The notes under the pieces are model-generated. The model was not told where the DNA came from. It ran no database searches and saw nothing but the letters and a program-made list of their open reading frames with translations. From assembly GCA_016871725.1 (NCBI GenBank), contig VHCL01000010.1, forward strand, positions 1 through 44,545: a stretch of DNA of 44,545 nt, in the 5' to 3' direction. The translations under genes were made by a program, and so were the position numbers. The DNA comes from Verrucomicrobiota bacterium (GTDB lineage Bacteria; Verrucomicrobiota; Verrucomicrobiia; Opitutales; UBA953). Each line of letters opens with the position of its first letter. Position 1 is the stretch's first letter. Shown in pieces: positions 2,910 to 20,283 of this stretch.

Positions 2910-3296
2910 CTAGGGCCAGACCGCTTTGAGCACGGCACGGAAAGCTTCCGCGTCGACCGACGTGTCAGGCCGGTCGATGACTTCGATGCAGTCGGCGTTG
3001 TCCCAAAACTCCCCTTCCTTCTTCATGTTCCAGAAAGCCAAGGCCAGGGTCTGCCAAAGCTCGAAGCCGGTCAGCTGTCCGCGCGGCAACCAAGCCACGG
3101 CGACCGGGATCTCCTCGGTCAGGTCCGACTCCTCCCAGAGGACGTCGAACTTGCCGCACTCGCTGGGCCCGAGGAACTGCGTCACGAACTCCGTGTGCCG
3201 CGGCCCCGCCTCGAGGTAATATCGGCAGACGACCTCGCGCTCGGCCGGCTCGAGGTCGTCGCCGCCGTCGTCGTGGTAAGTGCAAGGCTCCGCCAT
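2910..3296 (-). CDS. Conserved-looking acidic protein of unknown function
   Basis: 128 residues, soluble and strongly acidic, rich in Trp and Phe (FELWQTLALAFWNMKKEGEF). There is no signal peptide, membrane segment or motif I can assign. The product starts MAEPCTYHDDGGDDLEPAER and ends DAEAFRAVLKAVWP. It lies 35 bases after the DUF423 gene, which follows clpC by 3 bases, so all three may be co-transcribed. Codon usage matches the neighbours, which supports it being a real gene. Function unknown. Confidence 0.7.
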   Translation of the reverse strand: MAEPCTYHDDGGDDLEPAEREVVCRYYLEAGPRHTEFVTQFLGPSECGKFDVLWEESDLTEEIPVAVAWLPRGQLTGFELWQTLALAFWNMKKEGEFWDNADCIEVIDRPDTSVDAEAFRAVLKAVWP

Positions 3297-3331
3297 GCCT
3301 CAAGGTCGGACCCGGCGCCGCCGCGGGCAAG

Positions 3332-3679
3332 TCAGGATTCCCGGCGGACGGTCCAGGCGAGAGCGGCCCAGCCCGCGATCAGCAAGGAACCGCCGACGGG
3401 CGTGATCGCTCCGAACCAGCGCGGCGCGCCCAAGGCCATGGCGTAGAGCGTGCCGGCGAAGACCGCGGCGCCGAGGGCCCAGAGCCGGGCGGGCCACGGG
3501 GAACGCGCGGGGACGGCCCCGACGGCGACGGCGTGGGTGAGCAGGTAGAACGTGGCGGTCTCCCACCAGCCGACGGCCTCCGGGACGAGGGCGAGCCGCG
3601 CCCTCAGGCCGTGGGCGCCGAAGGCCCCCAGCGCGATGGCGAGCGCGCCGAGCAGCCCGGCGGTGACCAGACGAGGCAT
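3332..3679 (-). CDS. DUF423 family small membrane protein
   Basis: 115 residues with about four hydrophobic helices. The N-terminal LGALAIALGAFGAHGLRARL carries the GAFGAHGL signature of DUF423 (YgdD-like inner-membrane proteins). The WETATFYLLTHAVAV segment and the end GWAALAW also fit the family, and the length is typical. The molecular role of DUF423 is not established. The start is 3 bases downstream of the clpC stop, so it is probably translated from the clpC transcript. Confidence 0.88.
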   Translation of the reverse strand: MPRLVTAGLLGALAIALGAFGAHGLRARLALVPEAVGWWETATFYLLTHAVAVGAVPARSPWPARLWALGAAVFAGTLYAMALGAPRWFGAITPVGGSLLIAGWAALAWTVRRES

Positions 3680-3682
3680 GGC

Positions 3683-6235
3683 TTACGCGCCGGTGTCGGC
3701 GCCGCTCTTCTTCTGCGTGAAGACCAGGCCCTTCTCGCCGACCGAGACGATGACCGGCTCCTCCTTGTTGTAGTCGTCGCGCAGGATCGCTTCGGCCAGC
3801 GGATCCTCAAGGAGACGTTCGACCGCGCGGCGGAGCGGGCGGGCGCCGTACTTCTCATCCCAGCCGTTGTCGACCAGATAGCCGCGGGCGGCCTCGTTGA
3901 CCACCAGCTTCACGCCCAGGTCGAGGAGACGCTTGGCGACCTTGTCGACCTCGATGTCGACGATCTTGGTCATGTGGACCTTGGCGAGCTGCTGGAAGAT
4001 GACGATGTCCGTGAGGCGGTTGAGGAACTCCGGTTTGAAGGCGCGCTTGGTCTCGTCCATGATCCGGTCCTTGAGCTTCTCGTAGTCGCGCGTGGAGTCC
4101 ACGCCGACGTCGAAGCCGACCGAGTTGTTGCGCTGCAACACGTCGGCACCGACGTTGGACGTCAGGATGATGATCGTGTTGCGGAAGTCGACGACACGGC
4201 CAAGCGAGTCGGTCAGTCGGCCGTCTTCGAGGGCCTGCAGGAGGAGCTGGATGACGTCCGGGTGTGCCTTCTCGATCTCGTCGAAGAGCACCACGGAGTA
4301 GGGCTTGCGGCGCACCGCTTCGGTGAGCTGGCCGCCCTCGTCGTGGCCGACGTATCCGGGCGGCGAGCCGATGAGGCGGGAGACCGTGAACTTCTCCATG
4401 TACTCGGACATGTCGATCTGGATGACCGCGTCCTTCTCGCCGAACATGCGTTCGGCCAGGGAGCGGGCCAGGAGCGTCTTGCCGACGCCGGTGGGGCCGA
4501 GGAAGAGGAAGGAGCCGATCGGACGGCGGGGGTCCTTGAGGTCGGCGCGGGAGCGGCGGAGGGCGCGGGCCACGACCTCGCAGGCGCGGTCCTGGCCGAT
4601 GACGGCCGTCTGCAGGTCCTTCTCGAGTTCGAGGAGTTTCTTGGTCTCCTTCTTCTCGAGGCGGTTGAGGGGCACGCCCGTCCAGTCGGCGACGATGTGG
4701 AGCATCTCCTCCTCGCCGACGACGATGCGCTTCTCGTCACGCTTCTTGCGCCAGTCCTCGAGCATCTTCTCGCGCTTGGCCCGAAGCTTCTTCTCGGTGT
4801 CGCGCAGGTTGGCGGCCTCCTCGAACTTCTGGTTGCGCGAGGCGTCCTCCTTCTCCTGGACGACCTTGTCGATCTCGGACTGGACCACGTCGATGTCGGC
4901 CGGGACGTTCAACGAACGGATGCGGGCGCGGGCGCCGGCCTCGTCCATGACGTCGATGGCCTTGTCCGGGAGGTGGCGGGAGGTGATGTAGCGGTGCGAG
5001 AGACGGACGGCGGCCTCGATGGCGGCGTCCGTGTATTCGCACTTGTGGTGCTCCTCGTATTTCGCGCGGATGCCGCGCAGGATGAGCACGGCGTCCTCCG
5101 GCGTCGGGTCGTCGACCTTGACGGACTGGAAGCGGCGCTCGAGGGCGGCGTCCTTCTCGATGTGCTTGCGGTACTCGGAGAGCGTGGTGGCGCCGACGCA
5201 CTGGATCTCGCCGCGGGAGAGGGCCGGCTTGAGGATGTTGGAGGCGTCCATGGCGCCTTCGGCGGCGCCGGCGCCTACGATCGTGTGCATCTCGTCGATG
5301 AACAGGATGACGTTCTTGGCGCGCTTGATCTCGTCCATGATGCCCTTGATGCGCTCCTCGAACTGCCCGCGGTACTTCGTGCCGGCGACCATCAGGGCGA
5401 GGTCGAGGGTGATGACCTTGCGGTCGAGCAGGATCTCGGGGACGACGCCGGAGGCGATCTCCTGGGCGAGGCCTTCGACGATGGCGGTCTTGCCCACGCC
5501 GGCTTCGCCGATGAGGACCGGGTTGTTCTTGGTGCGGCGGCAGAGGATCTGCACCACGCGGCGGATCTCCTCCTTGCGGCCGATGACCGGGTCGAGCTCG
5601 CCGGCCTTGGCGAGCTCGGTGAGGTCGCGCCCGAAGGTCTTGAGCAACGAGAGCCGTTCGCCGCGGCCGGGGCGGGCGCCCTCTTCGGAGGAGGAGCGGC
5701 GGGAAGGCGGCGGGGCGTCCTCGGAGGACTCCTCCGAGGGAGGCGGCGTGTCGCCGTCCTTCTTCTCGGACTCGTCGGCGGCGGACGGATCGATGTCGGC
5801 GAGGATCTCCTTGCGGCAGCGCTCCAGGTCGACGTCGAGCTGCTGGAGCACGCGGGCGGCGACGCCCTCCCCTTCCTTCAGGAGGCCGAGGAGGATATGT
5901 TCGGTGCCGACGTAAGCGTGGCCGAGGGCGCGGGCTTCGGTGACGGCATGGGCCATCACCTTCTGCACGCGGGGCGTGAGCGGGATGGTGTCCGGCGCCT
6001 TGGCTTCTTCGGGACCGGGGCCGACCTGCTTCTCGACGGCGCCGCGGACGGTCTTGAGGTCGAGGCCCATGCGGCCGAGGACGTTCACCGCCACGCCCTC
6101 GCCGAGCTTGATCAGGCCGAGAAGGATGTGCTCGGTGCCGACGTAGTTGTGGTTGAACCGGCGGGCTTCCGCCCGGGCCAGTTCCACGACCTTGCGGGCG
6201 CGGGGAGTGAAATTGTTGTTTTTGTCCTTATCCAT
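3683..6235 (-). CDS. clpC: ATP-dependent Clp protease ATP-binding subunit ClpC
   Basis: 850-residue AAA+ unfoldase. Two N-terminal Clp repeats are visible ([19 protein letters not shown] from residue 9 and [20 protein letters not shown] from residue 86, each with [11 protein letters not shown]). The first AAA module has Walker A GEAGVGKT (about 243-250) and Walker [14 protein letters not shown]-type coiled middle domain ([20 protein letters not shown]) is the ClpC hallmark that separates it from ClpA. The second AAA module has [19 protein letters not shown] and [16 protein letters not shown] tripeptide (NNSVGFDVG) sits where the ClpP-docking loop is expected. The linker at residues 149-190 is long, acidic and Ser/Pro-rich. 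It would feed proteins to ClpP, which is not in the window. No CtsR or McsAB neighbours are present. Confidence 0.97.
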
Positions 6236-6281
6236 GGAAAGTAGGTCGGGGGTGTGAGGCCGTCGGGGTTTGGTAGCAGGG

Positions 6282-6309
6282 ACTATGCCCGAACCACGGG
6301 GAGGTTCAA
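6282..6309 (-). promoter_or_regulatory. Candidate sigma-70 type promoter for clpC
   Basis: On the minus strand TTGAAC (6309-6304) is followed after 16 bases by CATAGT (6287-6282), about 45 bases upstream of the clpC start. Each hexamer matches four of six consensus positions. It lies in the 155-base region shared with the divergent nrnA operon. No CIRCE or CtsR heptad repeat was seen. Confidence 0.4.
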
Positions 6310-6390
6310 GCGTTCCCCCGAAGTTGGGGATAACCCCGCCTTTTGCCTTTGCCAGCGGTGGGACCCGCCTGTTTCTTCATCCGCAAAACC

Positions 6391-7392
6391 ATGGGTATCA
6401 GCATGCAAGCGGCGGGCGAGGCCCTCCGGGACCTCATCAAGGGTCTCAAAGGGCGGAAAGTGGCCGTATTGGGCCATATGCGGCCGGATGGCGACTGCAT
6501 CGGCTCCCAGACCGCCCTGTGCCGGATGCTCCTCGCCGAAGGCGTGGACGCGCTCTGCGTGAACCGCGACCGGATCCCCCCGAACCTCGTCCCCTACGCG
6601 GAGGGCGTGACGTTCGTCAAAGGCGCCGATTATGACGCGACGGACCGGGTCGCCGTCACCGTCGACTGTGCCGATGCGTCCCGCGTCGGGACGGAACTGC
6701 TCGCCAAGTTCCCGGCCGGCATCCTGGCCAACATCGACCACCACGCCTCCAACCCGGACTACGCGCAGACGAATATCGTCGTCCGCGAAGCCGCCGCCAC
6801 CTGCCACATCCTCGCCGCCGGCGCCCTCGCCCAAGGCCTCGCCGTCGACGCCGTCACCGCCAAGGCCCTGCACCTCGGCATCCTGACCGACACCGGGCGC
6901 TTCTGCTACCGCAGCACCACCGCCGACGTCTTCGCGATCGTCGCCGAACTCGTCCGCCGTGGCGCCGACCCGGCCGAGGCCAACTTCCGCGTCTTCGAGC
7001 AGGAGAGCCGCGGCAAGCTGGAGCTCACGAAACGCTTCCTGAACACGATAGCCTTCCACGAGGACGGCAAGATCTGCTCCGGCGAACTCACCCAGGCGGA
7101 CTACGCCGCGACCGGCACCTCCAAGGAGGACAAGGAAGGCCTCGTGGAATTCCCCCGTTCCGTGGAAGGCGTCGAGATCGCCGTGCTGATGGAGGAAGGC
7201 GCCGACGGCATCCGTGGCAGCCTGCGCGGCCGCGACCCGAAGCTGCGCCTCGACCTCTGCGCCGCGAAGCTCAACGGCGGCGGCCACATGCTCGCGGCCG
7301 GCTTCAACATGCAGGGCTGCCGCCTGCCCCAGGACCGCGCGAAGATCCTCGGCATCGTCATCGCCCACTACCGCGAATACTCGGCGCGATGA
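6391..7392 (+). CDS. nrnA: DHH-family phosphoesterase, NrnA-like oligoribonuclease / pAp phosphatase
   Basis: 333 residues. The N-terminal metal motif [12 protein letters not shown] supplies His29, Asp33 and Asp35, the DHH motif is IDHHASN (Asp116-His117-His118), and the DHHA1 substrate-binding motif [10 protein letters not shown] lies at 296-305. This is the layout of NrnA, which degrades short oligoribonucleotides and dephosphorylates 3'-phosphoadenosine 5'-phosphate. The start at 6391 ([10 protein letters not shown]) is chosen because the open frame upstream (PLPAVGPACFFIRK) does not look like this family; Met at 6403 is an alternative. No clear Shine-Dalgarno precedes it. The stop overlaps the truB start by ATGA, giving an nrnA-truB-ribF operon, an order common beside infB/rbfA in other bacteria, although those two are absent here. 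Confidence 0.92.
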
Positions 7393-8108
7393 GCGAGCCC
7401 GCCGCCGAACCCGCGGGCGTGCTGCTCGTCGACAAGCCGCAGGGCATCACTTCCCATGACGTCGTGGACAGCGTGCGCCGTCTCTACCGCACGCGCCGCG
7501 TGGGCCACGCGGGGACCCTCGACCCGATGGCGACCGGCCTGCTCATCGTGCTCGTGGGCAAGGCGACCAAGGCTTCGGACCAGCTGATGGCCGAGGACAA
7601 GGAATACCTCGGCGAAGCGACGCTCGGCGTCGTCACCGACACCCAGGACGCCGAAGGCGCGCCCCTGGAGACGAACCCCGTCCCCGAGGTCACCGAAGCG
7701 CAGGTCCGCGCGGCGCTCGCCTCGATGCTCGGCGACCAGCTGCAGGTCCCGCCGATGCACTCGGCCAAGAAGATCGGCGGGCAGAAGCTCTACGACCTGG
7801 CGCGCAAGGGTCTCGAGGTCGTCCGTGAACCCCGCGCGATCCGCATCTCCGAGTTCGAACTGCTCTCCTGGCGGAGCCCGCGGATCAACTTCCGGGTCCG
7901 CTGCACCAAGGGCACCTACGTGCGCACGCTGGCCTACGACCTCGGCCGCAAGCTCGGCCCGGGCGCCCACCTTTCGATGCTCCGCCGCACGCGTTCCGGC
8001 CGGCTCGACCTGGCCCGCGGCCATACGCTCCCCCAGCTCGGCGCGATGACCGACGCGCAGCTCGTCGCCGCCCTCGTGCCCGTCGCCGAGGCGACTTCCG
8101 CCGCATGA
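7389..8108 (+). CDS. truB: tRNA pseudouridine(55) synthase TruB
   Basis: 239 residues. The N-terminus [20 protein letters not shown] and the catalytic block [14 protein letters not shown] (nucleophile Asp45) are diagnostic of TruB, which isomerises U55 of the tRNA T-loop to pseudouridine. The [13 protein letters not shown] block, another TruB motif, follows near residue 175. The C-terminal part is short, so any PUA-like extension is minimal. It overlaps nrnA at its start and ribF at its end by 4 bases each, so translation is probably coupled. Confidence 0.96.
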
Positions 8109-9010
8109 ACGCGCCCCTCCATCTCGCCATCGGCGCCTTCGACGGCGTGCACCTCGGCCACCGCGCCGTGCTGCACTCCGCCCGCGAGGCCGCCCGGGCG
8201 GACGGGGGCGTCGTCGGCGTGCTCACCTACGACCCGCACCCGAGCAAGGTGCTGCGGCCGGAATCCGCCGTGCCGCTGATCTTCACGCGCGCCCAGAAGG
8301 ACGGACGCCTGACCGAAGCCGGCGCGCAGCTGATCCATCACGAGAAGTTCGACCGGGCCCACGCGGGCATCGAAGCCGCCGGCTTCCCGAAGTGGCTGAA
8401 GCAGACCTTCCCGCAGCTGAAGTCGCTTCACGTCGGCGCCAATTTCCAGTACGGCCGGAGCCGCGCCGGCAACGGCGAGACCCTCATCGCGCATGGCGCG
8501 GCCGAAGGCCTCGGCGTCAGGCTCGTCGACGCGGTCAGGCTCGGCGAGGAGACCGTGAGCAGCTCGCGGATCCGCCAGTGCCTCGCCGCCGGGGACCTCG
8601 CCCTCGCGAACGCGATGCTCCTCCGGCCCTACGAGGCCGAAGGCGTCATCATCGGCGGACGCCGCCTCGGCCGGACCATCGGTTTCCCGACCGTGAACGT
8701 CGCCTGGCAACCCGAACTCAGGCCCGCCTACGGGGTCTACGCCGTCGAAGTCATCTTCCAGGGCGAGGCCCTGCCCGCCGTCGCCAACTACGGCCAGCGA
8801 CCGACGGTCGAGAGCGGGCCGGTCGCGCCGCTGCTGGAAGCCCACGTCCTCCGCGGGGCGGCGCCGACCACCGGTGACATCGTCCGCGTCCGCTGGATGC
8901 GCCGGCTGCGCGCCGAGGAGAAGTTCGCCGACCTCGCCGCCTTGCGGGCGCAGATCGCGCAGGACTCCGCCCAGGCCAGGCAAGCGCTCGGCTTGCTCGA
9001 CCAGGCTTAG
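8105..9010 (+). CDS. ribF: Bifunctional riboflavin kinase / FMN adenylyltransferase
   Basis: 301 residues. The N-terminal nucleotidyltransferase domain starts [17 protein letters not shown], the FAD synthetase HxGH-type motif. The C-terminal flavokinase domain (about 180-300) contains [14 protein letters not shown] and NYGQRPTVE. The two domains convert riboflavin to FMN and then FAD in the cytoplasm. The ATG overlaps the truB stop by ATGA, and it is last in the operon. Its TAG stop overlaps the stop of the convergent small membrane protein gene. No terminator was seen between them. Confidence 0.95.
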
Positions 9011-9201
9011 GACTTGGCGTTCAGCCGGGCCCGGGACCAGAAGAACAGCACGTTCCAGAGCATGAGGCCGGAGAGCCCGAAGAGCGGGAAGTGCAGCTCC
9101 GTCCCGCCGTTGAGCTTCACGATGAACCAGCCGAGGACGGCGAGGACGTCGGCGAGGATCATCAGCCAGACGGCTTTGTTCGAACGGAGGAAGGCTTCCA
9201 T
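9007..9201 (-). CDS. Small two-helix membrane protein, unknown function
   Basis: 64 residues. Two hydrophobic segments (AVWLMILADVLAVLGWFIV and PLFGLSGLMLWNVLFFW) are joined by a short polar loop and followed by a basic tail (SRARLNAKS), so the C-terminus is probably cytoplasmic. The start lies 2 bases downstream of the mpl stop, so it is likely translated from the mpl transcript. I do not recognise a family. The length and hydrophobic pattern support a real gene over chance. Confidence 0.65.
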   Translation of the reverse strand: MEAFLRSNKAVWLMILADVLAVLGWFIVKLNGGTELHFPLFGLSGLMLWNVLFFWSRARLNAKS

Positions 9202-9203
9202 GG

Positions 9204-10616
9204 TCAGACGGCTTGGGCGAACTTCTTGATGATGCCGCCGAAGGCGCCGTTCGAGAAGAAAATCACGCAGCGCGGGGACCGGTCGGCTTTCACGAGCGCG
9301 GTGAGTTCGGCGAGCAAGGCGTCGTTCGAAGCCGGGGCGAAACCCTGCCTGCCGGCGGCGTCGAGCGCGGCGGCGACGCCGGCGCTGTCGAAACGCTCCT
9401 CGCCGAGCTTGTCGGCGCGATGGGGCGGTGCCAGGAAGACCTCGTCGGCCTTCCTGAGGGCCTCGCGGAAGGCGTCCTGCATGACCTTGCGGGCGGCGGT
9501 GTTGCTGCGCGGCTCGAAGCAGGCGACGAGGCGGTGACGCGGATAACGGGCGCGCAGGGATTCCAGCGTCAGCTCGAGCGCGGTCGGGTGATGACCGAAA
9601 TCCTCGATGACGGTGAGGTCGGGACGGTCGACGAGCACCTGCTGACGACGCTGCACGCCTTGGAAGGAATTGAGCGCGTCGAGCTTCAGCTTCGTCGGAT
9701 CCCGGGCGTCGAGCAGGAGCCCGGCGGAGACGGCGGCCATGGCGGCGTTACGGGCGTTGAAGAGGCCCGGCAGGGCCCACTTCACCCTGCCCCACTCCCG
9801 GCACTTCCAGAGGAGCGTGAAGGAAGAGCCCGTAGGCGATTCCTGGAAATCGGCGATGACCGCGTCGTTGCCGGCGCCCGTGCCCACGCGCACGACCGGA
9901 GCCCAGCTGACGTTCTTCACCAGGCCGAGGACGTTGGCGTCGTCGCCGTTGGCGACGATCGCGCCGTCGCGCGGGACGATGCGGATGACGTGCGCGAACG
10001 TGCGCAGGACGTCGTCGAGGTCACGGAAGATGTCCGCATGGTCGAACTCGCAGTTATTGATCGCGAGCACGTGCGGCAGGTACTGGATGAATTTGCTGCG
10101 CTTGTCGAAGAAGGCCGTGTCGTATTCGTCGCCCTCGATGACGAAGGGACCGCCCGGCCGGCCGGGATGCGACGAATCCGGGAGGTCACGGGGCACGCCG
10201 CCGACGAGCCAGCCGGGGTCGGCGCCGTTGGCCTTGAGCAGCACCGCGGCCATGCAGGTCGTGGTGGTCTTGCCGTGGGTGCCGGCGACGACGACGTTGC
10301 GTCTTTCGTTCAACAGGCGGGTGCGAAGAAGCTCCGGAAGGGAGACGTAAGGCTGGGTGCGGGCTTCCAGCAGCCACTCCACTTCGGGGTGCCCGCGGGA
10401 GGCGACGTTGCCGACCACGACCAGGTCCGGCTTGAGCCGGGCGAGACGTTCGGCGGACCAGCCCTCGAGGATCTCGACGCCGGCGCCGCGCAGGTGGTCG
10501 GACATCGGCGGATAGACGCCCGTGTCGGAACCCATGACCTCGTGGCCCAAGGCGCGCATCAGCAAGGCGGCGTTACCCATCGCCGTGCCGCAGATGCCCA
10601 TGAAATAAATGCGCAT
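9204..10616 (-). CDS. mpl: UDP-N-acetylmuramate:L-alanyl-gamma-D-glutamyl-meso-diaminopimelate ligase
   Basis: 470 residues, Mur ligase superfamily. The N-terminus IYFMGICGTAMGNAALLMRA is the Mpl form of the Rossmann motif, and the ATP-binding loop is AGTHGKTTTT (111-120). The NNCEFDHADIF block and EDFGHHPTALELTL are typical of Mpl rather than MurC. The enzyme re-attaches recycled murein tripeptide to UDP-MurNAc. Its presence implies a diaminopimelate peptidoglycan and cell-wall recycling. The first Met aligns with the family start, so the start is firm. A terminator-like hairpin ends a few bases before it and no Shine-Dalgarno is present; see the findings. Confidence 0.94.
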   Translation of the reverse strand: MRIYFMGICGTAMGNAALLMRALGHEVMGSDTGVYPPMSDHLRGAGVEILEGWSAERLARLKPDLVVVGNVASRGHPEVEWLLEARTQPYVSLPELLRTRLLNERRNVVVAGTHGKTTTTCMAAVLLKANGADPGWLVGGVPRDLPDSSHPGRPGGPFVIEGDEYDTAFFDKRSKFIQYLPHVLAINNCEFDHADIFRDLDDVLRTFAHVIRIVPRDGAIVANGDDANVLGLVKNVSWAPVVRVGTGAGNDAVIADFQESPTGSSFTLLWKCREWGRVKWALPGLFNARNAAMAAVSAGLLLDARDPTKLKLDALNSFQGVQRRQQVLVDRPDLTVIEDFGHHPTALELTLESLRARYPRHRLVACFEPRSNTAARKVMQDAFREALRKADEVFLAPPHRADKLGEERFDSAGVAAALDAAGRQGFAPASNDALLAELTALVKADRSPRCVIFFSNGAFGGIIKKFAQAV

Positions 10617-10621
10617 GGGCC

Positions 10622-10649
10622 AGATAAAAGCCCTCGGGGGCCCGAGGGC
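10622..10649 (-). terminator. Terminator-like hairpin directly before the mpl start codon
   Basis: On the minus strand GCCCTCGG (10649-10642) pairs with CCGAGGGC (10637-10630) around a 4-base loop and is followed by TTTTATCT (10629-10622). The mpl ATG begins at 10616. The shape is that of an intrinsic terminator for transcripts coming from hpf, or of an attenuator controlling mpl. Confidence 0.65.
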
Positions 10650-10895
10650 GAGAAACTTAGGCGGCGGCGACCTCCGCCAAACAGGAGGACCCCGGCTACC
10701 TTGCGGCGGCCGGGGTCCTGTACCGTACTTTGACTGTGCTAGCTTGGCTTGCGTTGTCTGTTACCTGACTGACCGTCTGCTACCTTTCTCCGTCTGACTG
10801 GCTTTCCGTCTGTTTTCACCGACTTCGGGCCCTTCCGACTTCGACTTTCACCGACTTCCAGCCCTCACCGACAACCGGCCGGTTCCGCACCGTCC
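10650..10895 (-). repeat. Non-coding tract with short repeats between hpf and mpl
   Basis: No plausible gene is seen. Read on the hpf strand, it begins with the palindrome AACCGGCCGGTT. It continues with three GTCGGTGA units and three GAAGTCGG units that partly overlap, and then with three CAGACGG units. After these comes the 11-bp hairpin at 10686-10719. The opposite strand is strongly pyrimidine-rich. It could be a long structured 3' UTR of hpf, a small RNA, or a leader of mpl. Confidence 0.55.
10686..10719 (-). other. Perfect 11-bp inverted repeat
   Basis: AGGACCCCGGC (10686-10696) and GCCGGGGTCCT (10709-10719) form a perfect stem with a 12-base loop. Neither strand has a T tract after it, so it is not a simple terminator. 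It lies inside the hpf-mpl spacer. Confidence 0.7.
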
Positions 10896-11255
10896 TTACG
10901 CCGCGCGTCCCAGGTCGCCCAGGTCGGTCGGATGCGGATGATTCCGCTTCTCCTTGTCCAGGCGATGGCGGCGGCGAAGCTGGCGATCGACTTTGTCGAT
11001 CAGAATATCGATGGACTTGTACAGATCGTCCGACTCCTCCCGGACGACGATGTCCGGGCCGGGGATCTCCAGCCTGATCTGGGCCCCGAACTCGCGACTG
11101 TGGTCGCTGCAGCGGGTGTGGACGAGTTCGACGTGCACGCGGATGATCCGCGGGTTGTGGCGCAGCAGTCTTTCGACCTTGGCGCGCACCGTTTCCTTCA
11201 GGGCGTCGGTGAGGTCCAGATGGATCCCGGTCACGACGATCGGAGCACTTGTCAT
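10896..11255 (-). CDS. hpf: Short-form ribosome hibernation promoting factor (HPF/RaiA family)
   Basis: 119 residues. Start APIVVTGIHLDLTDALKETV, then KVERLLRHNPRIIRVHVELV and ESDDLYKSIDILIDKVDRQL match the sigma-54 modulation/HPF fold; the basic end RRRHRLDKEKRN also fits. There is no long C-terminal domain, so it is the short form, which binds the 30S decoding region during stationary phase. The start is placed at Met 11255 (MTSAPIVVTG) because the open frame upstream is unlike the family and would run into the divergent SDR gene. The leader before ATG is A/C-rich (CCCCCAAAAACACAACACAC) without a Shine-Dalgarno. Confidence 0.92.
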   Translation of the reverse strand: MTSAPIVVTGIHLDLTDALKETVRAKVERLLRHNPRIIRVHVELVHTRCSDHSREFGAQIRLEIPGPDIVVREESDDLYKSIDILIDKVDRQLRRRHRLDKEKRNHPHPTDLGDLGRAA

Positions 11256-11295
11256 GTGTGTTGTGTTTTTGGGGGTGACGTGAGACCCTGCGCCC

Positions 11296-12114
11296 ATGTC
11301 AAAGAACAAGACCGTCGATGATTTCTTCAGGAGTTTCTCCGTGGTCATCATATCAGGGGCTTCTTCCGGGATCGGACGCGCGATACTCTCGCGTATCAGG
11401 GATTCTGAGACCAAGGCGGTCGTGTTCAACCTTTCGCGGACCGCCCCGGAGGGCGTCCCGAATTCCCTTAACTTCACTCACCTTACCTGCGACCTCTCGC
11501 AAGCCGCTGACCTCGCGGCGGTTGTCTCCGAATTACGGAAACTAATGCCCGGCGAAGGCAGGATACTGCTGATTAATAACAGCGGTTTCGGGGCCTACGG
11601 GGAGTTTCCGGCGCCCGGCGTCGACCACACCTTGCGGATGATCGACGTCAACGTGCGCGCACCGGTCGAACTGACGGCACGGCTCTGGGACGAGATCAGG
11701 ACGCGCGGCGGCCAGGTCGCGAACGTCGCTTCGCTCGCGGGCTTCCAGCCCACGCCGCTGATGACCACCTACGCGGCGACGAAGTCCTTCCTGCTCGACT
11801 GGAGCGTCGCGCTCGACGCCGAAGCCAAGCCGCACGGCGTCCGCTGCGTGGCGATCTGCCCGGGCCCGGTCTCGACGAATTTCTCCAAGGCCGCGGGCTT
11901 CGCGAGTTCCACCGGCCTCGGCGGCCAGACCGCGGACGAATGCGCCGACGAAGCCGTGCGCGGGATGGCGGCCGCGCGGCCGGTCGTGGTCACCGGCTGG
12001 AAGCACCGGCTCCTCGCCGTCTTCTCGGCGCGCCTGCCCAAGCCCTGGGCGGCCGCGATCGGCCTGCGCATGATCCGGCGGCTGCGGCTGGACCGCTTCG
12101 TGAAGCAGGCCTGA
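11296..12114 (+). CDS. Short-chain dehydrogenase/reductase (SDR)
   Basis: 272 residues. The NAD(P)-binding motif GASSGIG is at 21-27, the NNSG motif near 94-97, and the catalytic set Asn119, Ser146, Tyr159 and Lys163 (YAATK) is complete. PGPVSTNF follows at the usual position. The substrate is unknown. The C-terminal part (HRLLAVFSARLPKPWAAAIG, then basic residues) resembles SDRs that sit at membranes, as in DltE-like or fatty-acyl-related enzymes, but this is weak. It is divergent from hpf with only 40 bases between the start codons. It ends 2 bases before the convergent recN stop. Confidence 0.93.
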   Translation: MSKNKTVDDFFRSFSVVIISGASSGIGRAILSRIRDSETKAVVFNLSRTAPEGVPNSLNFTHLTCDLSQAADLAAVVSELRKLMPGEGRILLINNSGFGAYGEFPAPGVDHTLRMIDVNVRAPVELTARLWDEIRTRGGQVANVASLAGFQPTPLMTTYAATKSFLLDWSVALDAEAKPHGVRCVAICPGPVSTNFSKAAGFASSTGLGGQTADECADEAVRGMAAARPVVVTGWKHRLLAVFSARLPKPWAAAIGLRMIRRLRLDRFVKQA

Positions 12115-12116
12115 GC

Positions 12117-13778
12117 CTACTTCGCGCCGTCGAGGAGCTCGCGGGCGTGGGAGAGCGCCACCTTGCTCGCGCGGTCGCCGAGCATGCGGGCCAGTTCGGA
12201 TTCGCGGTCCTTGCGCTTGGCATGGACGGGGGCGATCGCGACGGTCGTCGACTTCTCGTCCTGCGTCTTCGTGACGACGAGATGGGCATGCCCGAGCGCG
12301 GCGACCTGCGGAAGATGGGTCACGCAGAAGACCTGGTGGCCCTGGCCGAGCGCGGCGAGCTCGCGGCCGACCTGCGCGCCGATCTCACCGCCGACGTTGG
12401 CGTCGACCTCGTCGAAGACCAGCACCGGGGTGCGGTCGACGGCGGCGAGCACGGTCTTGAGGGCGAGCATCACGCGGGCGGCTTCGCCGCTGGAGGCGAT
12501 CTGGTCGAGCGGCAGGAGATCCTGGCCGGCGTTGGGGCAGAACAGGAAGCGGACCGCGTCGGCGCCGTGCGGGCCGAGTTCGGCGACGGCGACCTCGATG
12601 CGGAGATCGGCCTTCTTGAAGCCCAGCGAACCGAGCATCTTGCGGGCGGCGGCGGCGAGCCTGTCGGCTGCCTTCGTGCGGGCGGCACGGAGGGCTTCGG
12701 CCTGCTTGCGCAGGTCCTTCTCCACCTTGGCGGCCTCCGCCTTCAGCTTCGCCACGCGGGCTTCGACGTCGCCTTGCGAAGCGAGGCGGCGGCGGAGCGC
12801 CTCGCGCTTCTCGCGCACGGCGTCGGCGCCGGGGCCGTACTTGCGCCGGAACTCCAGCCAGAGGTTCATCTTCCCGTCGAGTTCGGCGGCGGACTCGTCG
12901 TCGGAGGAAAGTCCGCGGCCGAGGCGCGCGAAGTCGGCGCGGATGTCCTCCGCCTCCGCGGCGAGCGCATTCAGGCGGTCGCGCAGGGCGGAAGCTTCTT
13001 CGTCGATGCGGGCGACGTCGTCGCCGGCCTTGAGGAGCTTAGGCAGGACTTCGCCCAGGCCGTCGGAGCCGAGGCCGGCTTCCAGCTGGCCGAGCAAGGC
13101 CGCGAGTTCCTGGGCGCGGGACGAGCGCGCGTGGTCGCGTTCGAGCTTGGCGATGGCCTCCTCGGAGAGGTCGAGCGCATCGAGCTTCTCCAGCTGCGAG
13201 CGGAGGAAGGCCTCCTCGTCCTCGGAAAGGCGTTCAGCCGTGGCCGCATCGGCGGCTTCGCGGAGCAGCTCGTTGCGCTGACGCCAGCCGGCGCGGTAGG
13301 TCGCGAGCGGGGCGGCCAGGCCGGCATGCAGGTCGAGCATCTCCAGCTGCGTCTCGGCACGCATCAGCTTCTGCGGTTCGCCCGGGCCGTGGAAATCGAT
13401 CCACAGCTCGCCGAGCTGCTGGAGCTGCGTGAGCGTCGCCGCACCGCCGTTGACGGAGATGCGGCCCGCCTTGGCGGCGTGGACCGAACGCTTCAGGATG
13501 AGCAGGCCGTCGTCGCAGGCCGGGAGGTCGAGCGCCTTCAGCGCCTCGTCGAAGCGCTTGTCGCCGTCGGTCTCCAGCTCGGCTTCGACCGAGCACTCTT
13601 CGGCGCCCTTGCGGACGATCGTCTTCGCCGCGCGGTTGCCGGCGAGCAGCGAGAGCGCGCCGAGCAGCACGGACTTGCCGGCGCCGGTCTCGCCCGTGAC
13701 CACCGTGAAGCCTGCGCCCAGTTCGAGCGAGGCGCGGTCCATCAGGGCGAGGTCGCGGATTTGGAGGCGGCGGATCAT
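12117..13778 (-). CDS. recN: DNA repair protein RecN
   Basis: 553 residues, SMC-like ATPase. The N-terminus MIRRLQIRDLALMDRASLEL leads into Walker A GETGAGKS. The middle is long Ala/Glu/Arg-rich coiled coil, and the C-terminal head has Walker B LVFDEVDANVGGEIG followed by QVFCVTHLPQVAALG. RecN acts early in double-strand-break repair. The start at 13778 fits the family; the 15 residues upstream in the open frame do not. Its ATG overlaps the yggS stop (ATGA), so the two are co-translated. Confidence 0.96.
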   Translation of the reverse strand: MIRRLQIRDLALMDRASLELGAGFTVVTGETGAGKSVLLGALSLLAGNRAAKTIVRKGAEECSVEAELETDGDKRFDEALKALDLPACDDGLLILKRSVHAAKAGRISVNGGAATLTQLQQLGELWIDFHGPGEPQKLMRAETQLEMLDLHAGLAAPLATYRAGWRQRNELLREAADAATAERLSEDEEAFLRSQLEKLDALDLSEEAIAKLERDHARSSRAQELAALLGQLEAGLGSDGLGEVLPKLLKAGDDVARIDEEASALRDRLNALAAEAEDIRADFARLGRGLSSDDESAAELDGKMNLWLEFRRKYGPGADAVREKREALRRRLASQGDVEARVAKLKAEAAKVEKDLRKQAEALRAARTKAADRLAAAARKMLGSLGFKKADLRIEVAVAELGPHGADAVRFLFCPNAGQDLLPLDQIASSGEAARVMLALKTVLAAVDRTPVLVFDEVDANVGGEIGAQVGRELAALGQGHQVFCVTHLPQVAALGHAHLVVTKTQDEKSTTVAIAPVHAKRKDRESELARMLGDRASKVALSHARELLDGAK

Positions 13779-14473
13779 GCGGTGGGCCGGCTGCCGAACA
13801 AGGCGGAGCCGACGCGGACACAAGTAGAACCTGCGGCGACCGCGGATTCAAGGTCTCCGCTCATCCCCATCGACAATTCCGGGAGCGCCACGCCGAAGCG
13901 GGCGGCGAGGGCGTCGCGGCAGAGACGGAGCTCGGCGAAGGTACGGTCGGCGACCGCGGGGTCGTCAGAGAGCGGCGCGACGGCCATCAGGCCCTTCACG
14001 ACGAGGGCCGGCTGGGCGAGGGCGGTCTCAAGCAGCCGGGGCGCGTCCGCCAGGTCGCAGCCGAACTTCGCGGGATCGTCGCCCGCGTTGACCTGCAGCA
14101 GCACCTCGCGGCGCAGGCCCATCTCGCCGGCCAGCCGACCGAGGCGGGCGGCGAGTTCGGGGGAGTCGACGCTCTGGATGACGTCGAAGGCCTGCAGGGC
14201 GTGCTTGGCCTTGTTCGACTGCAGGTGGCCGATCAGCTCCCAACGGAGGTCGGCGGGCGCCAAGGGACGCTTCTGGGCGGCTTCCTGGACGCGGTTCTCG
14301 CCGACGGCCCGCAGGCCGAAGCCATAGGCCAGCAAAGCGGCCTCGACCGGGTGGGTCTTGGTGACCGGCAGGAGGCGGACGGCGGACGGGTCGCGGCCGA
14401 CCCGGGCGCAGGCGGCCCGGATGCGGGCCAGCACCCCCTCGCAATGGGCCTTGAATTGGTCGGAGGTGACCAT
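13775..14473 (-). CDS. YggS/PLPBP family pyridoxal-phosphate-binding protein
   Basis: 232 residues. The PLP lysine is Lys39 in LLPVTKTHP; the GLRAVGENRVQEA, ELIGHLQSNKAKHA and LSMGMSGDLESAVAAGST blocks are diagnostic of the YggS (PROSC) family of PLP homeostasis proteins, which have an alanine-racemase-like barrel but no known catalysis. The start at Met 14473 (MVTSDQFKAH) is chosen because the upstream open frame is Pro-rich and unlike the family; a GGGGGAA stretch lies just before it. It is the first gene of a two-gene unit with recN and is divergent from the lysR-type gene. Confidence 0.94.
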   Translation of the reverse strand: MVTSDQFKAHCEGVLARIRAACARVGRDPSAVRLLPVTKTHPVEAALLAYGFGLRAVGENRVQEAAQKRPLAPADLRWELIGHLQSNKAKHALQAFDVIQSVDSPELAARLGRLAGEMGLRREVLLQVNAGDDPAKFGCDLADAPRLLETALAQPALVVKGLMAVAPLSDDPAVADRTFAELRLCRDALAARFGVALPELSMGMSGDLESAVAAGSTCVRVGSALFGSRPTA

Positions 14474-14578
14474 TTCCCCCAGAGGGAGGGAGAACGGGCG
14501 GGGAGTCAACCAAGGGGGCTCCCCGGGCCACCCCGAGGGACTGACCTCAGGATTAGCAGGTCTACACTTGAAGGCCTT

Positions 14579-14604
14579 CGCCATTAGTTTTATTAATCAT
14601 GGCG
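14579..14604 (+). promoter_or_regulatory. Probable LysR-type operator (T-N11-A dyad)
   Basis: ATTA at 14583-14586 and TAAT at 14594-14597 are separated by 7 bases and form the T-N11-A dyad typical of LysR regulators. They are flanked by CGCC (14579-14582) and GGCG (14601-14604), which extend the symmetry imperfectly. The site is 12 bases before the regulator start codon, in an AT-rich patch, and lies between the divergent yggS and lysR-type genes. Negative autoregulation is the simplest reading. Confidence 0.55.
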
Positions 14605-14615
14605 ACCTTCCTTCC

Positions 14616-15515
14616 ATGCATATCGAGAACCTGAAGATCTTCCGCGACCTGGTGGACAACGAAAGCTTCTCCAAGGCCGCCAAACTCAACGCCATCACCC
14701 AGTCGGCCGTCAGCCAGCAGCTGCGATCGATGGAGAAGCACTTCAACGTCCTGATCGTCGACCGCAGCCAGAAGCAGTTCCGGCTGACGCGCGAGGGCCG
14801 GAGCCTCTATGAGGCCGCCAAGGACATCCTCAACCGCTACGAACAGGTCGGCAGCGAGATGCAGGAGATGCGCAAGGTCGTCAGCGGCACCGTGCACATC
14901 TCGACCATCGTCTCCATCGGCCTCCATGAGCTGCCGCCGCACGTGAAGTCGTTCATGCAGGAATTCCCCCACGTCAACGTGCGCGTCGAGTACCGCCGTT
15001 CGAACCTCGTCTACGAGGACGTCATCTCCAACGCCGTGGACTTCGGCCTCGTCGCCTTCCCGCAGAAGACCCGCCAGGTCGAGATCATCCCGCTCATGGA
15101 GGACCAGCTCGTCGCCATCTGCTCGCCCAGGCACAAGCTCGCGGCGAAGAAAGAGATCGACCTCGCCGACCTGCAGGGCGGCAAGTTCATCGGCTTCGAC
15201 CAGGACATCCCGACGCGCAAGGCGCTCGACCAGTTCTTCCGCGAGCAGCGCATCGAGCTCGAGCCTTCGATGGAGTTCGACAACATCGAGACGCTCAAGC
15301 GCGCGGTCGAGGTCGACGCCGGCGTGGCCCTCGTGCCCGAAGGCACCATCCGCCAGGAAGTCGAGCAAGGCACGCTCGTCATGCTCCGCCTGCGCGACCG
15401 CCGCGTGGCGCGACCGCTGGCCATCCTGCACCGCAAGGGCCGCGTGCTGACGCCGGCCATGAAACGCTTCATGACGCACCTCATGAACAGCGCCGGCGGC
15501 AAGGCCGCGGCCTGA
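14616..15515 (+). CDS. LysR-family transcriptional regulator
   Basis: 299 residues. The N-terminal winged helix-turn-helix (MHIENLKIFRDLVDNESFSK, then AITQSAVSQQLRSMEKHF) is classic LysR. A linker helix and a periplasmic-binding-protein-like effector domain follow, with strands such as SGTVHISTIVSIGLHELPP, EDQLVAICSPRHKLA and EVDAGVALVPEGTI. The start is set at 14616 by the family N-terminus. Targets and ligand are unknown; the divergent yggS-recN pair shares its upstream region. Its TGA abuts the stop of the convergent membrane protein gene with no bases between. Confidence 0.94.
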   Translation: MHIENLKIFRDLVDNESFSKAAKLNAITQSAVSQQLRSMEKHFNVLIVDRSQKQFRLTREGRSLYEAAKDILNRYEQVGSEMQEMRKVVSGTVHISTIVSIGLHELPPHVKSFMQEFPHVNVRVEYRRSNLVYEDVISNAVDFGLVAFPQKTRQVEIIPLMEDQLVAICSPRHKLAAKKEIDLADLQGGKFIGFDQDIPTRKALDQFFREQRIELEPSMEFDNIETLKRAVEVDAGVALVPEGTIRQEVEQGTLVMLRLRDRRVARPLAILHRKGRVLTPAMKRFMTHLMNSAGGKAAA

Positions 15516-16112
15516 TCAGACCCGCTGACGGGCTTCCCGGGCCGCCACGGCGAACCCGGGCAGCGCCTGCGCGCCGAGCATGCCCAGGCCGAGCCAGAGC
15601 AAGGCCTCGTCGGCCGGCGCGCGCAGCGCGGTCGCGGCCAGACCCCACCAGAGGAGCGCGCCGACGAGCGGGGGCCAAGCCCGGCGCAGGGCGGCCCGCG
15701 CGAGGGACCAGGAACCGAGCAGCGCGGCCCCGAGGGCCGCGGCGACGGGGGCCGCGATCGCCCCGAGCGCGAAGCGCGCGTAGGCGACGAAACCGAGCGA
15801 GACGAGGAGGCCGGCGAGCACGGCGGCGTTGACGCGGAAGTGCGTGGGGAGCAGGTGGAGCTTCACGCGGTGGGCGTGGAGGTAATAGAGCGAGGCGACC
15901 GTGCCCATCACGAGGGTGAGGGTCCAGACATAGAAGGCCCCGCTGACCGGGATGGCGTACCGCGCGATGGCCCACTGCGCGAGGAGACACTTGGCCAGGA
16001 TGAGCGACCAGATCGCGCCCAGCCGGTCGGTGACCAAGGCCTCGCGATAGGCCCGCTCCACGGAGAGGGCGAGTTCGGTCTGTTGGGCGGAAGGAAGCGA
16101 CGTGGCGGGCAT
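15516..16112 (-). CDS. Polytopic membrane protein of unknown function
   Basis: 198 residues. A short polar N-terminus with an ERAYREALVTDR helix is followed by about five or six hydrophobic segments, for example VSGAFYVWTLTLVMGTVASL near 55-75, an Ala/Gly/Leu-rich pair near 95-135, and PPLVGALLWWGLAATAL. The C-terminus is basic (AAREARQRV). I recognise no family. It starts 6 bases after the stop of the 482-residue protein and is very likely co-transcribed with it, so the two may act together. Confidence 0.75.
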   Translation of the reverse strand: MPATSLPSAQQTELALSVERAYREALVTDRLGAIWSLILAKCLLAQWAIARYAIPVSGAFYVWTLTLVMGTVASLYYLHAHRVKLHLLPTHFRVNAAVLAGLLVSLGFVAYARFALGAIAAPVAAALGAALLGSWSLARAALRRAWPPLVGALLWWGLAATALRAPADEALLWLGLGMLGAQALPGFAVAAREARQRV

Positions 16113-16118
16113 GGCGGG

Positions 16119-17567
16119 CTATCTGGCCCACAACTTGAGGCTTCGGATCGCGACCGCAACCGACGGCGGCACTTCCTTCTCCCAGTCCGGCACGCCCTTG
16201 CGGATGCGTTCGGCCAGGGTGCGGGGCTGGCAGGCCATCGCGACGGGATCGGCGCCGGTGATGGGGACGAGGAACCCGTTGTTGAGCAGATGCTGGAAAA
16301 GCCCGGCGACGGAAGGGCGCATCTGGATGTCGGAAGCCGTGACCACGGAATCCTCGGCGATGCGGTAGCTTTCCGGGAAGCAGACCTTGCAGGCGACGGG
16401 ATCGAGGATGAGGCGGCGCAGCTGGTCGCCGAGCATCGGGTAGACCATGACCCGGACGCCGTCCTTGAAGAGCCGGCCGCAGGACTCCAGCACGCCGCCT
16501 TCGAGGTGCGTGTAGTGCTCGGGATTGAAGAGGTCCACGAGGTTGTTCATGCCGGCCACGAGCGTGATGCCGCCCGTGGTGTGGAGGCGGAAGTAAGCGG
16601 GCAGGCGATACCAGCCGCGGTGCCGGGTGACCAGCAGGGGGTGCTGCATCGCGCCGACGAGGCGGATGCGGTCGATCAGCTCGGCCTCGGGGTGAGGGTC
16701 GGAACCGATGCACATCTCGAAAAGCGCGAGGACGTCCTTGCCGCCGTCCGGCAGCGCGCGGAGCGCGCAGGCGAGCATGTCCTCGTTGACGAGGGAGACC
16801 GGCCGGAACGTGCCGCGCGCGACGAGCACGGAACGTTTGTAGAAATACTCGCTGGGGACCTGCGGGTCGCCCTCGGGGCCGAAGAGCACGGCGTCCGTCA
16901 GGCCGAGCCGCACCAGGCGTAGGGCCGCGGCGCGATTGTCGAACGCGCCGAACGCGGGGCCGCTGAAGTGCGCGAACTCGATCTCGACGCGGCCGGAACC
17001 GACCTCGTCGACGAGGGCGGTGAGGAAGCTGTCGACGCTGTCGCGGGTGTTGAGGGCGGCGTGGATCAGGTTGACGCCCACGGCGCCGAGGGCGTCCTGC
17101 TGCCGGCCCGCGTCCTTGTCCCAGAGGCGAAGATGGAGGATGACCTCGCTGGGCTCGGCGCCCGGCTGGTCCTGGAAGCGGATGCCGATCCAGGAATGCC
17201 CCTGCCCTTTCCCGTCATGGGGCGTGGTCGCGACGGTGTCGGCGAAGGCGAAGAAGCGGGTGACCGAGCCGCGTTCGGCCTTCAGCCGGTCGACCAGGAG
17301 CCCGTATTCGTGGTCGAGCATCTGCTCGAGACGCTGGCGGGAGACGTAACGCTGCGGGTGGCCGTAGATGGCGTCGCTGATCCGCATGTCGTAGGCCGAG
17401 ATGCTCTTCGCGACGGTCCCGGAGGCCCCGCCGGCCTTGAAGAAGTGGCGGACGACCTCCTGGCCGGCGCCGATCTCGGCGAAGGCGCCGTAGGCGGAAC
17501 GGTCCAGGTTGATGGCCAGGGCCTTGCGGGAGGTGGCGGCTCCGGCCGATGACGTAGGCTCAGACAT
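16119..17567 (-). CDS. Uncharacterised conserved protein with FAEIGAGQEVVRHFF motif
   Basis: 482 residues, soluble, no signal peptide. The N-terminal stretch ALAINLDRSAYGAFAEIGAG, then QEVVRHFFKAGGASGTVAKS and SAYDMRISDAIYG is highly patterned; I recall similar N-termini in predicted proteins of diverse bacteria, annotated inconsistently and without a function I can defend. Later blocks include FFAFADTVATTPHDGKGQGH, FSGPAFGAFDNRAAALRLVR, NNLVDLFNPEHYTHLEGGVL and VYPMLGDQLRRL. No Walker, Rossmann or metal motif is obvious. It is followed after 6 bases by the polytopic membrane protein and is divergent from sppA. Confidence 0.85.
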   Translation of the reverse strand: MSEPTSSAGAATSRKALAINLDRSAYGAFAEIGAGQEVVRHFFKAGGASGTVAKSISAYDMRISDAIYGHPQRYVSRQRLEQMLDHEYGLLVDRLKAERGSVTRFFAFADTVATTPHDGKGQGHSWIGIRFQDQPGAEPSEVILHLRLWDKDAGRQQDALGAVGVNLIHAALNTRDSVDSFLTALVDEVGSGRVEIEFAHFSGPAFGAFDNRAAALRLVRLGLTDAVLFGPEGDPQVPSEYFYKRSVLVARGTFRPVSLVNEDMLACALRALPDGGKDVLALFEMCIGSDPHPEAELIDRIRLVGAMQHPLLVTRHRGWYRLPAYFRLHTTGGITLVAGMNNLVDLFNPEHYTHLEGGVLESCGRLFKDGVRVMVYPMLGDQLRRLILDPVACKVCFPESYRIAEDSVVTASDIQMRPSVAGLFQHLLNNGFLVPITGADPVAMACQPRTLAERIRKGVPDWEKEVPPSVAVAIRSLKLWAR

Positions 17568-17688
17568 GACCCCAGATTAAGTCCGCCCGCCGAGCGGCAT
17601 CGAGAGGAAACCGCGGGCTAAAAAATCCGCTTTGGATTGGCGAAAACAAGACAGGGAAGCATCATTTCGGCATCACCCGTCCCTCGCC

Positions 17689-19491: not shown

Positions 19492-19497
19492 GCGCGC

Positions 19498-20268
19498 TCA
19501 GGGCTTCTTCGGCATCTGCGCCTTGGCCTCCGGCATCCACTTGCGGAGCTGGGCGACGCGGGTGCTGTCGGCGGGGTGCGTCGAAAGGAACTCCGGAGGC
19601 TTGCCGCCTCCCGCCTTGGCGAAGCGCGTCCAGAAAGCCGGGGCCGCCTCGGGGTCGTAGCCGGCGCGGGCCATGAAGACGAGGCCGAGCCGGTCGGACT
19701 CGGACTCATGGCTGCGGCTGAACGGCAGCAGGATGCCGTACTGGGCGCCGAGGCCGACCGCGGCCATCCAGGTGCCGCGGGTCTTGGCGGAGGAATCGCG
19801 GGTGGCCTCGTCGGCGACGGCGGCGGCGATGGCGACTCCCATGGCCTGGGAGACGCGCTCGGAGCCGTGCCGGCAGATGACGTGCGCGACCTCGTGGCCC
19901 ATGATCACGGCGAGGTCGTCGTCCGTCGGGGCGAAGGCGAACATGCCGGCGTGGAAGCCGATCTTGCCCCCGGGCATCGCGAAGGCGTTGGGTGACTTGT
20001 CGTCGATGACGGCGAACTCCCAGCGGGAAGCGGGCGGCAGGACGCCGGCCTTGTCGTCACGGCGCGCGGCCGCGACGATCTTGAGGCCGATCTCGCGGAG
20101 CTTGGGCAGCCGCGGGTCGGCCGGCAGCTTCTTCATCTTCGCGAACTCGGCGGCCGAGAGGGAGGCCACCTCGCTTTCGTCGACGAGGATGAACTGCGAG
20201 CGCCCGGTCACCGGGACTTGCTGGCAACCGACGATGGCGAGGGACGCGAGGAGCAGGAACAGGCGCAT
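19498..20268 (-). CDS. M48-family metallopeptidase lipoprotein
   Basis: 256 residues. Lipoprotein signal with lipobox IVGC (Cys15), then the family opening VPVTGRSQFILVDESEV. The zinc site is HEVAH in VIMGHEVAHVICRHGSERVS, with the third ligand Glu in SHESESDRLGL and the substrate motif LSTHPADSTRVAQL near the end. This matches LoiP/YggG-like periplasmic Zn proteases that act in outer-membrane quality control. It begins 15 bases after the wzc stop and may be the last gene of the export unit. Confidence 0.94.
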   Translation of the reverse strand: MRLFLLLASLAIVGCQQVPVTGRSQFILVDESEVASLSAAEFAKMKKLPADPRLPKLREIGLKIVAAARRDDKAGVLPPASRWEFAVIDDKSPNAFAMPGGKIGFHAGMFAFAPTDDDLAVIMGHEVAHVICRHGSERVSQAMGVAIAAAVADEATRDSSAKTRGTWMAAVGLGAQYGILLPFSRSHESESDRLGLVFMARAGYDPEAAPAFWTRFAKAGGGKPPEFLSTHPADSTRVAQLRKWMPEAKAQMPKKP

Positions 20269-20283
20269 GGGGGGCGGGGGAAG

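Follow-up and report, generated by a model that had tools for sequence, protein, structure and literature searches.

In this Verrucomicrobiota bacterium, mpl is most likely expressed as a leaderless mRNA from a promoter whose putative −35 and −10 elements are CTCGCCC and TTTTAT, and we hold this reading, which is drawn from sequence comparison, with good confidence. In the proposed mechanism, a sigma-70-type polymerase would recognize TCGCCC and TTTTAT, 16 bp apart, and RNA would begin 6–8 nt after the −10 element, at or within ~2 bases of the A of the ATG, yielding an mpl mRNA without a leader. The hairpin that precedes the start codon looks like an intrinsic terminator. Its apparent T-tract would instead be the −10 element, and its stem, which spans the promoter spacer, would mostly be a by-product of that spacer in the nearest relatives. 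Transcription of the neighboring gene hpf would stop earlier, at a terminator at 10718-10687. All positions refer to the window, meaning the whole stretch of 44,545 nucleotides that was analyzed, and the features are collected in Table 1.

Table 1. Features of the hpf–mpl region, in order of position in the window.
Feature	Position	Strand	Description and basis
mpl	9204..10616	minus	470 aa, ATG at 10616; NCBIfam profile TIGR01081
Start codon and putative transcription start (within ~2 nt)	10614..10616	minus	6–8 nt from −10 to ATG; genome-wide pattern
Putative −10 element TTTTAT	10624..10629	minus	23 nt after CTCGC start in 39/46 loci; held-out model
Reported stem-loop	10630..10649	minus	Lies across −35/−10 spacer; structure not conserved
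Putative −35 element CTCGCCC (hexamer TCGCCC 10651-10646)	10646..10652	minus	CTCGC conservation; best −35 of model trained without mpl
Likely hpf terminator	10679..10718	minus	Stem GGACCCCGG..CCGGGGTCC 10718-10687, tail TCCTGTTT 10686-10679
hpf, ribosome hibernation promoting factor	10896..11255	minus	119 aa; TIGR00741, 70 bits, cut-off 40.9

The mpl start codon and the hairpin in front of it

The product of mpl is UDP-N-acetylmuramate:L-alanyl-gamma-D-glutamyl-meso-diaminopimelate ligase, an enzyme of cell-wall recycling. In an NCBIfam profile search, it matched TIGR01081 with an E-value of 3.6e-111 and a score of 372.4 bits, slightly below the model cut-off of 388.7, and the alignment begins at residue 2 of the product. 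There is no in-frame ATG, GTG or TTG upstream of the mpl start, and the position of the ATG is kept in 49/49 same-genus loci. The start codon therefore looks firm, which bears out an earlier, sequence-only reading of this DNA that had called it so on the grounds of a complete N-terminus.

That reading had also described a terminator-like hairpin ending a few bases before the mpl ATG, and the hairpin is present exactly as written. On the minus strand, the arm GCCCTCGG (10649-10642) is followed by the loop GCCC (10641-10638) and the arm CCGAGGGC (10637-10630), and then by TTTTATCT (10629-10622), GGCCC (10621-10617) and the ATG. The hairpin has the build of an intrinsic terminator, a G+C-rich stem followed by a T-tract, with a tract that is short (TTTTATCT). 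It ranks first among 16 sites in a terminator scan of positions 3000-22000, where shuffled sequences give 9.5 ± 3.4 sites. RNAfold places it in both the minimum-free-energy and centroid structures of a 161-nt stretch; for a 336-nt stretch it is found in the minimum-free-energy structure and is absent from the centroid.

The G+C content of the genome is 68%, and comparable stems before start codons are not rare. In a sample of 346 genes whose upstream gap is 60 nt or longer, a perfect stem of at least 8 pairs (G-U allowed) occurs in the region −42 to −6 in 23, compared with ~10 in mononucleotide shuffles. A stem of at least 6 pairs with a T-rich tail at most 60 nt from the start is found in 14 of the 346, mpl among them. 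Two other genes of the same genome, L204 and L199 (starts at 6217 and 4107 in gene-strand coordinates), have longer stems with T-rich tails; the stems comprise 15 and 13 pairs and end 7 and 6 nt upstream of the called start codon.

Conserved boxes and hairpins within the genus

We searched 57 genomes, including the genome studied here, for Mpl and 79 genomes of the family for the spacer DNA. The same genus is represented by 55 genomes (own genome included), 45 of which gave 46 loci with an mpl start; G030 has two such loci, and a second, partial mpl in G021 was left out. The remaining ten genomes yielded three intact loci, one piece without a 5′ end and, in six cases, nothing at E ≤ 1e-40. In total, 49 loci in 48 same-genus genomes were compared. 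Thirty of the first 45 genomes were chosen by Mpl protein alone, with the spacer playing no part in the choice, and the other 15 came via the spacer search. Judging by sample names, the named relatives close in Mpl appear to be mainly freshwater.

Two short boxes are conserved at a fixed distance in these loci. CTCGC is found at −35, −36 or −37 from the ATG in 46/46 loci and in all three later ones, and in 39 of the 46 the first base of TTTTAT lies exactly 23 nt beyond that of CTCGC. Box and hexamer move together relative to the ATG (−36/−13 in 26 loci, −35/−12 in 10 and −37/−14 in 3), and the sequence between them is less conserved than the boxes themselves. The seven loci without TTTTAT (L015, L018, L021, L029, L031, L070 and L071) have other T/A-rich hexamers nearby. 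A leaderless promoter is expected to hold its −10 element about 6–8 nt before the start, which is where TTTTAT (−12 to −14) or, in the seven loci, another T/A-rich hexamer lies, and its −35 element at 16–18 bp from the −10, where TCGCCC is found at 16 bp. In the sister genus g24 (L061-L065), CTCGC was not seen upstream of mpl; there, T-rich sequence carrying repeated TTTAATC- or CTTTAA-like units stands before the start.

The stem, by comparison, is lost in many relatives. In the 46-row alignment (37 distinct rows), 69.3% of stem cells are paired versus 69.7% with shuffled partners, and covariation is 0.099 versus 0.122, the observed value being equalled or exceeded in 471 of 500 shuffles. The stem does beat slid partners on the fraction of cells paired (41–58% when slid). 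All 8 pairs form in 13 loci, 7 in 6, 6 in 4, 5 in 6, 4 in 11, 3 in one and 2 in 5; the stem is thus whole in 13/46 loci and retains at least 7 pairs in 19/46. Across the 46 loci, neither pairing nor covariation exceeds the shuffles, and we see no conservation of the stem through paired changes. The sequence-only reading had proposed a search of related genomes for compensatory changes and had counted a stem not kept there as evidence against itself, which, as regards structure, is what the comparison returned. Short boxes that are kept at rigid spacing, while the fold is not, form the pattern expected of a promoter. The stem may nevertheless play a role in close relatives, for example in the 13 loci that retain all of its pairs.

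These observations bear on two other explanations of the hairpin. It could be a working intrinsic terminator, with mpl expressed by regulated read-through from hpf (attenuation), as its strong G+C-rich stem followed by TTTTATCT, the top site of the terminator scan, would suggest; hpf is also the same-strand upstream neighbor of mpl in 45/46 loci, the remaining locus being cut by a contig end. However, the stem is not kept as a structure, its T-tract coincides with the conserved TTTTAT, and the genus has another terminator-like hairpin farther upstream. We consider attenuation very improbable.

We give a probability close to negligible to the idea that the hairpin masks the mpl ribosome site as an RNA switch or thermosensor. 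The 3′ arm of the stem does contain GAGGG, but this sequence lies 14 nt before the ATG, beyond the usual Shine-Dalgarno spacing, and it is not kept in relatives. Furthermore, the stem lacks covariation, the genome has no excess of Shine-Dalgarno sequences, and no Rfam family matches at gathering score. At that score, only two tRNAs were found in the whole window, both elsewhere, and at E ≤ 10 the hpf–mpl spacer gave only weak matches far below gathering. A conserved RNA structure holding the ribosome site, the mark of a riboswitch or thermosensor, is not found before mpl, nor is a Shine-Dalgarno sequence at the usual spacing. Of the three routes to mpl expression that had been proposed from the sequence alone, the comparison therefore favors the leaderless mRNA, while attenuation and an RNA switch both suffer from the stem not being conserved. 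The accompanying remark that an mpl-specific promoter would have to overlap the hairpin is likewise favored by the comparison.

Under the leaderless promoter reading, transcripts of hpf probably end before the reported hairpin, at 10718-10687, because a terminator-like hairpin is kept there and a near-copy of it follows 5S rRNA. It sits ~40 nt upstream of the reported hairpin, between the hpf stop and the CTCGC box. Its sequence is common to 32 loci, in which 95.1% of cells pair, compared with 29–56% for slid partners; a few pairs change on both sides, though covariation is not clearly above shuffles (64/500 as high). In other loci, different hairpins occupy this position, and several of them have longer T-tracts (L016, L017, L019, L012, L073, L031, L070, L071 and L074). 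As a raw count without a shuffled baseline, a stem with a T-rich tail at −14 kcal/mol or better lies between hpf and the mpl box in 43/46 loci. Weaker stems are found in L014, L015 and L029, of which L014 nonetheless keeps the common stem. The T-tract of the proposed terminator, TCCTGTTT, is poor. The near-copy of the hairpin lies 4 nt after an Rfam 5S rRNA match in 5/6 loci of other genomes, the sixth being at a contig end. The earlier proposal that a transcript coming from hpf ends at the hairpin next to mpl is thus not favored, since the hairpin kept across the genus is the one at 10718-10687.

The near-copies after 5S rRNA (L076, L078, L079, L080 and L081) and the hairpin at 10718-10687 have a CCGCAAGG loop region in common, and a second GACCCCGG hairpin of the own genome is located on G000 contig C58. 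Between the hpf stop and the terminator, within 10720-10895, the longer spacers contain ~155 nt of purine-rich, repetitive-looking sequence. Several relatives do not have this stretch, and their spacers are 99–127 nt long versus 259–299 nt. The purine-rich stretch might be a 3′-UTR RNA.

Predicted promoter architecture across the genome

The arrangement of boxes before mpl recurs across the genome. We sampled 844,545 of 2,374,465 bases, in which a codon-model caller blind to upstream sequence identified 671 genes. Promoter statistics were taken from the 346 genes whose upstream gap reaches 60 nt or more, with 216 genes whose gap is below 30 nt serving as a contrast set. In the 346 genes, TTG peaks at −35 (31 genes) and −34 (30), compared with a mean of 6.9 per position. 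At −36 to −33 it is present in 78/346 genes versus 16.0 in eight control windows (p 2e-31); these windows omit −52 to −37, a region in which TTG is elevated as well (37 to 47 per 4-nt window), as would be expected from short leaders. The contrast set shows no TTG peak. Where TTG stands at −35 or −34 (61 genes), position −11 is A in 54% and position −7 is T in 59%, while the 261 genes without TTG at −37 to −33 show a weak −10 bias only. A strict TANNNT at −12 is present in only 9/346 genes, which is still its top position. Because the strict motif is rare, the evidence across the genome comes mainly from TTG at −35/−34. C at −1 is found in 69% and is not specific, as it is equally high in G066, a genome without TTG excess.

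A two-block, free-position model assigned 35% of promoter mass to a −10 block at −16 to −12, a share that also takes in very short leaders, versus 7% in shuffled and 8% in operon-internal sequence. In other genomes (54–88 genes each), the same model gave 7–21%. Its share of genes with any promoter is unusable, being 0.58 for shuffled and 1.00 for operon-internal sequence. In five same-genus genomes, TTG is present at −36 to −33 in 5/44, 15/42, 12/46, 9/47 and 14/55 genes, or 55/234 when pooled, versus 14.9 (p 2e-17). Outside the genus the picture is mixed: 9/138 in G066 (control 6.9, p 0.25), 17/121 in G070 (8.1, p 0.003), 11/94 in G049 (3.6, p 0.001), 15/136 in G055 (10.1, p 0.08) and 14/88 in G040 (7.1, p 0.01).

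The elements of this genome are degenerate, and a scan for TTGACA/TATAAT found no promoter in 19 kb. The mpl boxes are themselves off consensus, with TCGCCC lacking TTG and TTTTAT lacking an A at its second place. TCGCCC differs by one base from TTGCCC, and TTGCC and CTTGC are the most enriched pentamers at −38 to −34 in the genome. When mpl was left out of training, the best promoter that the model found in the 100 nt upstream was CTCGCCCT/CTTTTATC, at 9.7 bits, which falls between the median (8.6) and the upper quartile (10.1) of the 345 training genes. A TCGCCC/TTTTAT-type pair scores best in 42/46 loci, which are not independent given that 39 of them have identical boxes, and in 1/3 later loci. 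We infer a transcription start at the mpl ATG from the 6–8 nt between the −10 element and the ATG together with the genome-wide pattern.

The CTCGCCC sequence might instead be bound by a regulator or a different sigma factor that serves mpl and only a few genes besides, with the inverted repeat as an operator; transcription may still be leaderless in that case. Consistent with this idea, CTCGC is invariant in 49/49 loci, more than expected of a −35 element alone, and the exact pair CTCGC-N18-20-TTTTAT is found once in the whole genome, at mpl. On the other hand, CTCGC lies at −35 at a fixed distance to the −10 element and is over-represented at −38 to −34, where it precedes 13 genes, mpl included, versus ~2.5 expected, and the opposite half of the inverted repeat is variable. 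We regard such a dedicated site as unlikely. As a genome-wide regulon, CTCGC-N18-20-TTTTAT was rejected, mpl being its sole occurrence.

Shine-Dalgarno use and comparison with known systems

The own genome shows no enrichment of Shine-Dalgarno-like tetramers (5.2% vs 6.4%). The usual 3′ end of 16S rRNA was found in 0/55 genus genomes, both as an exact and as a looser pattern, and Rfam RF00177 likewise in 0/55, with the control ringing in 9/14. In the 14 genomes behind the named loci, 16S-end matches occur in 9, at 13 places; of the 8 places inspected none is 16S-end-like, and the 6 of these scanned with Rfam gave no match. The 16S gene is probably missing from the genome copies examined, because 23S and 5S are present in some same-genus genomes without detectable 16S.

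Zheng et al. 2011 (PMC3160421) recognize leaderless genes by a TA signal ~10 bp before the start. Verrucomicrobia are not named in that article among the groups with leaderless genes, the word being absent from its main text, and it is also absent from the accessible text of PMC5397173. In Deinococcus-Thermus, the accessible text of PMC12340547 reports a −10 element adjoining ~30% of ORFs. The mpl gene resembles the leaderless genes of both studies (PMC3160421; PMC12340547) in having a −10-like element 6–8 nt before the start, as do many genes in its genome. It differs in that the −35 element is the clearest signal here, the −10 is degenerate and the phylum is another one.

A Cappable-seq study of Akkermansia muciniphila found 10% of mapped start sites to be leaderless (PMC4782308), and leaderless mRNA is thus already known in the phylum. 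Akkermansia belongs to a distant class of the same phylum, and its start sites were mapped whereas ours are predicted. Akkermansia and strain IMCC26134 are listed, in the part of PMC10783764 available to us, among Shine-Dalgarno-scarce organisms with CCUCC. These Verrucomicrobiota, in which CCUCC is conserved, share with the present genus little sign of Shine-Dalgarno use. However, that study scores 16S/mRNA pairing and not promoters, and no 16S 3′ end was found in our genus. Among the matches listed in the open-licence literature (titles and abstract starts), we found no treatment of leaderless genes in Opitutae.

Beyond mpl, it is conceivable, if rather doubtful, that leaderless starts from full −35/−10 promoters are a main mode in this genus, with no visible Shine-Dalgarno use, and that a distinct subset of these promoters, that of mpl among them, is marked by CTCGCC and served by a sigma factor or regulator of its own. 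The mpl case illustrates how a −10 element beside a stem formed by chance may be mistaken for a terminator where a genome is G+C-rich and has leaderless promoters. Leaderless, Shine-Dalgarno-free translation is best documented in Actinobacteria and Deinococcus-Thermus; in this genus of Verrucomicrobiota, too, a sizeable share of genes appears to have leaderless mRNAs that are translated without the help of a Shine-Dalgarno site.
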